NCBI RefSeq assembly: GCF_000799735.1
Contig: NZ_JUHH01000001.1
Span: 1,798,001-1,862,000 of the forward strand
Length of the DNA: 64,000 nt
Source: Methylotenera sp. G11
Lineage (GTDB): Bacteria > Pseudomonadota > Gammaproteobacteria > Burkholderiales > Methylophilaceae
Direction: 5' to 3'
Shown piece by piece: positions 18,528 through 23,063 of the stretch (its first letter is position 1; the number at the start of each line of letters is the position of its first letter). The position numbers and the translations under genes were made by a program. Below the pieces are notes generated by a model. It was not told the DNA's origin. It searched no databases and was given only the letters and a program-made list of their open reading frames with translations.

Positions 18528-18720
18528 TATATAAAATAATAACAATAATAATGAAGTTAATTTCTGTGTATAACTTGTTATTTATATTTAAAATCAGCAG
18601 CTTGATTTAAATATGGTTTTCTTGGTAAAGCCATAATCTGTTGTGGATAGATTGTTGAGTAAAAATCCGGTATTTTAAAAACACAACCTTATCCTAATTC
18701 TATCCACAAGCTATCCTTAA
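18528..18720 (-). repeat. Copy A of a 193-bp direct repeat of the dnaA-dnaN intergenic region
   Basis: This is a base-for-base copy of 22871-23063, with four substitutions and no gaps, in the same orientation and 4,343 bp away. It contains DnaA-box-like sites: TGTGTATAA (18565-18573, a perfect reverse match to TTATNCACA), TGTGGATAG (18642-18650) and CTATCCACA (18700-18708). The whole gene-free stretch 18348-18752 is very AT-rich. Apart from this repeat nothing recognisable was seen; a pilU promoter is expected here. Confidence 0.95.
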
Positions 18721-18752
18721 CCTTTATATGAAAAATCATCTATAAATAGAGT

Positions 18753-19172
18753 TTAAACAGGATCAATATTGTTATCTTTACACCAATCCAGTAATGCAAT
18801 CTCGGATGCATTCGCTTCAAAAACATGCCATTTTTCCAACTTTCCTTCTGATCGCAGCAGCTCTTTAAAACGTCTATATGCCCCTCTTTTACGAAATAAA
18901 CTGGCAGCAAAGTTGTAATCATGCGGAATTTCTTCACTGACAAAAGATAGCGCCAAATTCTGTCCAAGTTTTAAGTTGTTTTTATGAGGAACGGGAATAT
19001 ATCGATCAGATGTTTCAAGGTCGTCCGGACCTTTTTCTTCCAGGTCAATGACAGTCGATTTCCAGTAAATAGTGCCAGTATTCATGCATATATAGGCACT
19101 GTGTTGAGATGATGGTCCGGAACTTACAAATTCAAATGCATTACGTAATTCGTTGAAATTTATACTATGCAT
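18753..19172 (-). CDS. UPF0158 family protein
   Basis: A 139-residue soluble protein that fits the UPF0158 family. The recognisable pieces are SDRYIPVPHKNNLKLGQNLALSF, an RKRGAYRRFKELL segment and a C-terminal WHVFEANASEIALLDWC. No function is known for the family. It sits between gyrB and pilU and, together with gyrB and dnaN, is enclosed by the two copies of the 193-bp repeat. A terminator separates it from gyrB, so it needs its own promoter in the short gap before 19216. Confidence 0.85.
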   Translation of the reverse strand: MHSINFNELRNAFEFVSSGPSSQHSAYICMNTGTIYWKSTVIDLEEKGPDDLETSDRYIPVPHKNNLKLGQNLALSFVSEEIPHDYNFAASLFRKRGAYRRFKELLRSEGKLEKWHVFEANASEIALLDWCKDNNIDPV

Positions 19173-19216
19173 ACCGTTCCATAAAATTTAAATAGTGATC
19201 ATGAAGTATCAGTTAC

Positions 19217-19243
19217 AAAAAAAGCCCTTAGAGGGCTTTTTTT
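19217..19243 (-). terminator. Rho-independent terminator after gyrB
   Basis: Seven A, a GCCC/GGGC stem with a 5-base loop, then seven T. It follows the gyrB stop on the minus strand; the symmetry would let it work in both directions. Confidence 0.85.
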
Positions 19244-19273
19244 GTTTGTATTGCGAATGTTTTTTAAGAAGTT

Positions 19274-21691: not shown

Positions 21692-21725
21692 GCCATTAAG
21701 TCTTTATAAAATTTGATTAAAATGA

Positions 21726-21741
21726 TGTTTCACGTGAAACA
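21726..21741. promoter_or_regulatory. parS site 1 (between dnaN and gyrB)
   Basis: The perfect 16-bp palindrome TGTTTCACGTGAAACA is the bacterial consensus for ParB binding. It sits in the 59-bp gap between dnaN and gyrB, 11-12 kb from parAB. Confidence 0.95.
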
Positions 21742-21750
21742 GGCCTTTGT

Positions 21751-22851
21751 TTAGATGCGCATCGGCATTACTACATATTTATAATCAGCATTGCTTGGTA
21801 CAGTGATCAGGCAACTGCTATTAGCATCTGCAAATGAGAATGTCACCTGATCGCTATTGGTATTATTGAGTACATCAATTAAATAAGTAACATTGAAGCC
21901 TATATCCAGACTGTCACCGTTGTAATCGATTTCCAACTCTTCCTCAGCCTCCTCCTGATCGCTGTTAGTGCTGATCAGCTTTAGGTTGTTATTACTCAAT
22001 ACCATACGGATACCGCGATATTTTTCATTAGATAAAATTGAAGCGCGCTGCATGGCCAGTAAAACATTTAAACGTTCGGCAGAAAATGTATTCTTATGCC
22101 CGGTCGGGATAACACGGTTGTAATCAGGGAATTTCCCATCGATGACTTTAGAAATAAGTTTGATATTGCCAAAGTTAAAGTTCACCTGATTGTTCGAAAT
22201 CTCTACCGTTACGTCTTCTTCGCTATCATCAAGTAATTTAATTAATTCGATGACGGTTTTTCTAGGCAGGATTACTTCCTGTTTTTCATAATTCTGTTTA
22301 AGTTCGGTAGATGTGAAACTCAGGCGATGTCCGTCCGTACCTACGATATTCAAACGATTGGCATTCACTTCAAATAGCAAACCATTCAGGTAATAACGAA
22401 TGTCCTGCTGGGCCATTGCAAATTCAACCTGCTTCAGCAGATCTTTCAATTGCCCCTGACCGATATTGATTAAAGTCGCCTGGCTAGTGGTTTTAGTCAT
22501 TACCGGGTAATCGGCAGCAGGCAATGTCTGCAGGTTAAAACGGCTTTTACCGGCTTTTACGGTAATGCGGCTATCATTGGTAGCCATATTGATTTCCGAA
22601 CTGTCAGGTAAAGATCTGCAGATATCGAGTAGTTTTTTTGCAGAGATGGTGGTTGAAAAATCACCGCTAGTGCCGCTATCTACTGACAATGAAATCTGCA
22701 TTTCCAAATCTGTAGCAGTCAGATGAATCTTATTCTGTTTTGCTTCAAGTAACAGATTGGACAGAATAGGTAATGTATGCCTTTTTTCTACAATGCTTGT
22801 TACTGAAGTTAATGGTTTTAATAAAGTTTCACGGTTGATTTGGATATTCAT
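21751..22851 (-). CDS. dnaN: DNA polymerase III beta sliding clamp
   Basis: DnaN is the ring-shaped processivity clamp of the replicative polymerase. The 366-residue product has the family's start (MNIQINRETLLKPLTSV), RHTLPILSNLLLEA, a central VGTDGHRLSFT motif, RGIRMVLSNN-type segment and the C-terminal V-M-P-M-R-I. Three similar domains fit the length. It is transcribed leftward from the dnaA side, with repeat copy B as its upstream region. Confidence 0.98.
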   Translation of the reverse strand: MNIQINRETLLKPLTSVTSIVEKRHTLPILSNLLLEAKQNKIHLTATDLEMQISLSVDSGTSGDFSTTISAKKLLDICRSLPDSSEINMATNDSRITVKAGKSRFNLQTLPAADYPVMTKTTSQATLINIGQGQLKDLLKQVEFAMAQQDIRYYLNGLLFEVNANRLNIVGTDGHRLSFTSTELKQNYEKQEVILPRKTVIELIKLLDDSEEDVTVEISNNQVNFNFGNIKLISKVIDGKFPDYNRVIPTGHKNTFSAERLNVLLAMQRASILSNEKYRGIRMVLSNNNLKLISTNSDQEEAEEELEIDYNGDSLDIGFNVTYLIDVLNNTNSDQVTFSFADANSSCLITVPSNADYKYVVMPMRI

Positions 22852-22870
22852 CTTTATAACCTAAATAATG

Positions 22871-23063
22871 TATATAAAATAATAACAATAATAATGAAGT
22901 TAATTTCTGTGTATAACTTGTTATTTATATTTAAAATCAGCAACTTGATTTAAATACGGTTTTCTTGGTAAAGCCATAATCTGTTGTGGATAGATTGTTG
23001 AGTAAAAATCCGGTATTTTAAAAACACAACCTTATCCTAATTCTATCCACACGCAATCCTTAA
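22871..23063 (-). repeat. Copy B of the 193-bp direct repeat: dnaA-dnaN intergenic region
   Basis: This fills nearly all of the 214-bp gap between dnaA and dnaN, ending 2 bp from the dnaA stop. DnaA-box-like sites are at 22908-22916 (TGTGTATAA), 22985-22993 (TGTGGATAG) and 23043-23051 (CTATCCACA). It presumably holds the dnaN promoter and possibly part of the replication origin. Its near-identical twin is at 18528-18720. Confidence 0.95.

Follow-up and report, generated by a model that had tools for sequence, protein, structure and literature searches.

Organization of the locus and its 193-bp repeat

The locus described here lies in a 64,000-nucleotide stretch (the window) of the genome of Methylotenera sp. 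G11, which is assembled as a single contig of 2,545,099 bases. A series of genes on the minus strand includes dnaA (23066-24550), dnaN (21751-22851) and gyrB (19274-21691), each with Pfam support, followed by a UPF0158 gene (18753-19172; PF03682), a T2SSE ATPase gene (17124-18347; PF00437) whose product we take to be of the PilT/PilU family, and a gene coding for a DUF2339 membrane protein (15416-17071; PF10101). The ATPase is one of several paralogs in the genome, a separate pair of which is located at genome coordinates 23.2-25.4 kb.

A 193-nt sequence is present twice and in the same orientation (plus strand as given), at 18528-18720 (copy A) and 22871-23063 (copy B), with a spacing of 4343. 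The two copies align without gaps at 98% identity and differ at four places (18600/22943 G/A, 18614/22957 T/C, 18709/23052 A/C and 18712/23055 T/A). This confirms the first-pass annotation, which had described a 193-bp direct repeat with four differences enclosing dnaN, gyrB and the UPF0158 gene; the last of these sits between gyrB and copy A, and adjoins gyrB in genome G050 as well. The pair is the sole direct repeat of at least 30 nt found between positions 15000 and 30000 of the window, and copy A matches the whole genome at exactly two places with E-values (4e-97 and 1e-91) that exclude chance as an explanation for the repeat. A search for a plasmid or phage source gave no match at E 1e-5 in the plasmid or phage collection.

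Copy B occupies the dnaA-dnaN spacer, with 19 nt to the dnaN start codon and 2 nt to the dnaA stop codon. The repeat unit is without any gene, which sets it apart from large duplications whose unit includes replication genes. Beyond the 193 nt there is no significant similarity between the flanks of the two copies on either side in anchored alignments compared with 1500 composition-matched genome stretches (fraction aligning at least as well 0.14 on the left and 0.57 on the right; 0.25 and 0.75 for shuffles), and the breakpoints therefore frame the core closely. An old duplication with a homogenised core was considered and rejected, as the flanks retain no residual similarity.

DnaA boxes and DnaA-trios in both copies

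Each copy contains one perfect TTATNCACA DnaA box, present as TTATACACA and read on the minus strand, at 18565..18573 in copy A and 22908..22916 in copy B. In addition, a motif scan identifies two boxes per copy with one mismatch (CTATCCACA), located in copy A at 18642..18650 (minus strand) and 18700..18708 (plus strand), and in copy B at 22985..22993 (minus strand) and 23043..23051 (plus strand). One perfect box and two near matches per copy is also what had been noted previously. Copy B has an extra one-mismatch match (TTATATACA) at 22869, lying partly beyond the repeat.

The perfect box is accompanied in both copies by a run of DnaA-trios on the minus strand (18532..18555 in copy A and 22875..22898 in copy B), with eight middle-A trios at spacer 9 in each and an identical arrangement of box, spacer and trios. 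At spacer 13 the copy A run falls in an AAT/AAC/AAA frame. Eight trios were reached by 1 of 3000 shuffles of copy A, and the only 200-nt tiles of the 64-kb window with at least seven trios are those over the two copies. In relatives the corresponding spacers (n=36) have at least three trios in 35 cases and at least six in 31, and most columns of the copy B run are at least 85% conserved among 29 single-copy rows of the same genus.

The basal unwinding system (BUS) of bacterial origins is described (PMC8287927, PMC6669920) as a DnaA box, a spacer of at most 16 nt and a run of middle-A trios, located in the dnaA-dnaN spacer. Both copies have a perfect TTATNCACA match, for which high affinity is predicted, and at least three trios within 16 nt of it. 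The layout in the dnaA-dnaN spacer is thus the same as in the BUS and B. subtilis incC, with the difference that here the whole module, as recognized from its motifs, is found twice on one chromosome. Given this combination of box, spacer and trio run, the repeat is the core of the chromosome's origin as conserved among relatives, with strand separation predicted from the motifs, and is more than a dnaN promoter. The duplication and its origin-core nature are both well supported.

Outside the repeat, a single conserved DnaA box (TTATCCACA; 24690..24698, plus strand) is located upstream of dnaA. It is present in all 42 distinct rpmH-dnaA spacers compared, this genome's included, and its commonest distances from the start of rpmH are about 109 and 165 nt. 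This spacer was considered as a second unwinding site and rejected, since it contains one perfect DnaA box and merely two trios (range 1-5 among the 42 spacers). The position of 24.6 kb, previously named as a place of replication start, is not the one favored by the motifs, which place the predicted native unwinding site in copy B at 22.9 kb.

Copy B is the native copy

With copy A as query, 46 of 150 genomes have a match (this one included), among them 40 of the 52 in the same genus. Loci were examined for 40 of the 45 other matching genomes, and in all 40 the match adjoins dnaA, dnaN or both. The repeat thus resides in the dnaA-dnaN spacer of the relatives, identifying copy B as the native copy, and on its dnaN side copy B also keeps the flank CTTTATAACCTAAATA, which is widespread in the genus. 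An alignment of single-copy spacers retained 34 of 36, of which 29 are from the same genus, with G031 and G045 left out. Across those 29 the longest strongly conserved block is an AT-rich stretch with ATAATAACAATAATAATG followed by the DnaA box, and the remaining conserved blocks contain further DnaA boxes.

The dnaA-dnaN spacer is 214 nt long here and 228-321 nt in the 34 single-copy relatives, the latter lengths being a few nucleotides too long as they are measured to the last aligned dnaA residue. Just past the end of the repeat, copy A has the C found in the relatives' consensus CCTTAAC and copy B does not; copy B may have lost some sequence after the duplication.

GC skew, computed for 20 sampled 20-kb stretches and the window, has two sign changes, one here and the other at ~0.41-0.52 Mb. 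The minimum within the window is at 23,654, which is inside dnaA and some 0.6 kb away from copy B. Cumulative skew declines between copy A (-606 at 18,720) and 21.7 kb (-717 at 21,700) and then stays level up to copy B (-715 at 22,871 and -719 at 23,063), with the minimum itself at -746. Copy B therefore lies beside the skew minimum next to dnaA, where a primary origin is expected, and copy A is away from it (-606 versus -746). The position of the minimum points to long-term initiation near copy B and dnaA, with the reservation that skew reflects a long history, whereas copy A is recent.

Copy A is found in this genome only

Neither the genome-wide search with copy A nor a degenerate pattern for the unwinding block found a comparable match outside the dnaA-dnaN spacer in any other genome searched, apart from one 31-nt partial match in G012 (E=2.7e-4). 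The degenerate pattern matches 31 of 187 family genomes, and its reversed control matches none. Two pattern matches each are present in this genome, G031 and G045, and only here does one fall outside the spacer; one match, in G240, is without an assigned position. A sensitive BLAST search of 354 loci with copy A likewise gives two matches in one locus for the same three genomes only. As to the question raised earlier of whether relatives have copy A, it was found in this genome alone among those searched, using searches that miss some copies. The genome-wide search, which scores few candidates per genome, failed to report the copies in the spacers of G018 and G034, the exact pattern overlooks several copies that are present (in G003, G012 and G027, for instance), and diverged second copies elsewhere could likewise escape.

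The nearest relatives appear to be G048 and G017, with htpX identities of 94% and 92%, the highest among 15 genomes compared. Colinearity of the G048 contig with the window extends only as far as 15,724, a point inside the DUF2339 gene past which the two sequences part, and the G017 contig stops within that gene.

Age of the duplication and constraint on copy A

Copies A and B are 2.1% divergent, and at least 24.9% divergent from any other copy compared. This bears out the earlier proposal of a recent duplication that supplied a complete additional set of DnaA sites. Over the stretch that it shares with the window, G048 is 21-23% different, and the copying, or the last conversion, is accordingly much younger than the split from G048.

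When polarised against 29 relatives, two changes fall on each copy, with one of those on copy A assigned by 11 votes to 10. Changes at columns at least 85% conserved number none of two for copy A and one of two for copy B (Fisher p=0.34), a comparison with little power from four differences. By this comparison copy A has no apparent decay, and four differences cannot establish selection; the duplication may be so young that decay has not yet had time to occur.

Copy A lies in a rearranged block

In G036, G050 and G051 the UPF0158 gene is followed by one gene and then by LysR and htpX genes, which in the window are located further left. That one gene is absent from the interval in this genome, and in its place are copy A, the ATPase gene and the DUF2339 gene. 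Orthologs of the ATPase (84-89%) are present in 18 genomes, located elsewhere. In the eight genomes that were laid out (G013, G015, G023, G025, G036, G043, G050 and G051) the ortholog is situated between a gene of a 224-aa type, whose reading frame is longer in G013 and G051, and one of 103 aa. These old neighbors are found together in this genome near 911 kb, 346 nt apart and without the ATPase gene; the empty ancestral site corresponds to L205:8253-8598, near 911.25-911.60 kb of the genome. The joining of the old neighbors without the ATPase gene indicates that the gene has moved, with copy A at the edge of its block. Gene order thus places copy A within a rearrangement that is specific to this lineage and by which a PilT/PilU-family gene was relocated as well.

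The DUF2339 gene is not at the corresponding place in G036, G050 or G051. Matches to it are found in 16 of 52 same-genus genomes and are strong, besides this genome, only in G017 and G048. Its position beside the LysR gene recurs in G017 and partly in G048, so this part of the arrangement is older. In G048 (L206:18825-19407) the DUF2339 match is cut to the C-terminal 112 residues and is followed by sequence unlike the window, perhaps reflecting a second rearrangement at the same spot.

Tandem origin cores in two relatives

The core is also present twice in G031 (record inferred as CANFZA010000029) and G045 (inferred as CAIYLB010000037), there in tandem inside the dnaA-dnaN spacer. The tandem copies are 88% identical over 207 nt in G031 and 83% identical over about 197 nt in G045; the loci are L041:4274-4961 (also L275) and L051:3101-3629 (also L288), with about 505 and 400 nt respectively from start to start. 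These are the only two of 71 named loci tested that have a second copy in the locus, several of the 71 being short and nine of the 80 named loci having been left out where a contig end cuts the stretch upstream of dnaN. In all three genomes with two copies the module ends at a similar place, at a distance of 9-19 nt from dnaN.

In a tree the two copies of each tandem genome pair together, with supports of 0.94 and 0.81. By raw distance the first copy of G045 is closer to the first copy of G031 (0.144) than to its own second copy (0.185), so a single older duplication followed by partial conversion is no less possible than two separate events. The sequences that separate the tandem copies in the two genomes have no clear relationship (best E=0.02). 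Where the tandem copies differ, the differences keep away from conserved columns (Fisher p=0.0009 and 0.003). With the differences assigned to single copies, the test gives p=0.02 in both genomes for the copy nearer dnaN, and p=0.07 and 0.21 for the one nearer dnaA, a weak suggestion that the second copies are not free to drift.

Comparison with known origins

Bacterial chromosomes are held to initiate at one origin. A 193-bp duplicate without genes therein constitutes a natural experiment on whether the module is sufficient and on how far a cell tolerates two opening sites, and the tandem cases in G031 and G045 suggest more than a single accident.

Bipartite origins, as summarized in PMC4285127, consist of two parts separated by a gene, usually dnaA, with the unwinding element in one part only. 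As in the bipartite oriC of B. subtilis and H. pylori, DnaA boxes form two clusters separated by a few kb in the neighborhood of replication genes; at this locus each cluster has three boxes of at most one mismatch. The copies differ from these in flanking dnaN, gyrB and the UPF0158 gene and in both having unwinding motifs, and for the latter reason the classical form of the bipartite origin raised in the first-pass annotation does not fit.

Natural extra copies of oriC in cis are known from M. bovis BCG Pasteur (DU1) and BCG 3281 (PMC2448323, PMC4395146); the repeats there are 29.7 kb and 7.2 kb long and include genes, in contrast to the 193 bp alone here. Gao 2015 lists putative double origins, in which a second DnaA-box region is predicted on one chromosome (PMC4403523). 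Those regions lie beside another gene (parB, hemE) or with a second dnaA, whereas the second region here is a near-identical copy without dnaA; the text of PMC4403523 gives no sequence identity between paired regions. Extra origins in print have also been engineered (PMC4403523) or are reported from fused Vibrio chromosomes (PMC6284228). Among the matches listed in the open-licence literature, none describes a gene-free, near-identical and ectopic copy of an unwinding core.

Possible roles of copy A

We propose that copy B is the working origin core of the chromosome. Copy A is, on the sequence evidence, a recent, precise, same-orientation duplicate placed 4.3 kb aside in the rearranged block to which the ATPase gene was also moved. 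Given that copy A keeps the box, spacer, trios and flanking boxes, DnaA should bind to it and could open it. Copy A would then compete with, or add to, the assembly of DnaA at copy B, with most replication starting at copy B. In B. subtilis, copies of the unwinding region placed on a plasmid reportedly inhibit initiation (PMC6669920), which makes a titration or auxiliary role a reasonable expectation. We rank first, at roughly even chances, the reading in which copy A is an auxiliary DnaA-binding and potentially unwindable site. It is reasonable to suppose that loss of the enclosed dnaN-gyrB segment would be purged.

The main rival, ranked second and possible though not probable, sees copy A as an inert passenger without effect, left behind by the rearrangement that relocated the ATPase gene and so recent that decay has not set in. 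The divergence of only 2.1%, the occurrence in one genome only, the position at the edge of a lineage-specific block and a constraint test on copy A without power are all consistent with this. A passenger is less readily reconciled with functional motifs that are all intact, with breakpoints that frame the core and have no significant similarity beyond either end, and with a module that is doubled in G031 and G045 as well, where the differences avoid conserved columns.

A broader form of the auxiliary-site proposal, which we hold tentatively and consider rather unlikely, is that in this genus the core of ~190-210 bp behaves as a portable unit and has undergone two or more duplications, one ectopic (here) and at least one in tandem (G031 and G045), with both copies used. 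The result would be a doubled-BUS origin whose extra module serves either to tune DnaA loading or as a second opening site. If so, recombination between copies A and B would release a 4.3-kb circle with dnaN, gyrB and a complete core, which might replicate itself.

It has also been suggested that copy A sits where the pilU promoter should be, and it could in this way have supplied the dnaN promoter and DnaA-dependent control to the ATPase gene. Copy A is oriented to this gene as copy B is to dnaN, no nucleotide alignment with ATPase orthologs enters the leader by more than 9 nt, and each copy has a weak promoter-like site on the right strand. The gene has moved here, though, and its start codon is 180 nt from copy A, across sequence that is outside the repeat and unrelated to it; no clear source for this leader was found, the best match in the loci compared having E=0.009 and the best at the old locus E=0.49. 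The number of promoter-like matches is close to what shuffles give (5 against a mean of 3.5, sd 1.8, and 4 against a mean of 1.8, sd 1.3), and read-through from the upstream UPF0158 gene is possible. Promoter capture is thus improbable.

Two working origins 4.3 kb apart, with both copies firing, would be in keeping with the complete unwinding layout in each, and we regard this as distinctly improbable given that the skew minimum is near copy B and dnaA and most of the segment between the copies has the sign of the left arm. That copy A is an assembly artefact is very improbable: the copies differ at four places and have unrelated flanks, the genome is one contig, and the ATPase gene is absent from its ancestral place, as expected from the rearrangement.

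Origin regions in other assemblies

No dnaN match and no convincing dnaA match was found in the assemblies of the two apparently nearest relatives, G048 and G017, or in those of G011, G033 and G044, all five being rated at least 90% complete; apparently the origin region has been lost from these assemblies or bins. The contigs of G014, G020, G026, G028 and G042 end within or beside the origin core. Such ends possibly reflect second copies left unresolved in assembly, or low complexity, and at most they hint at further repeats in these genomes.
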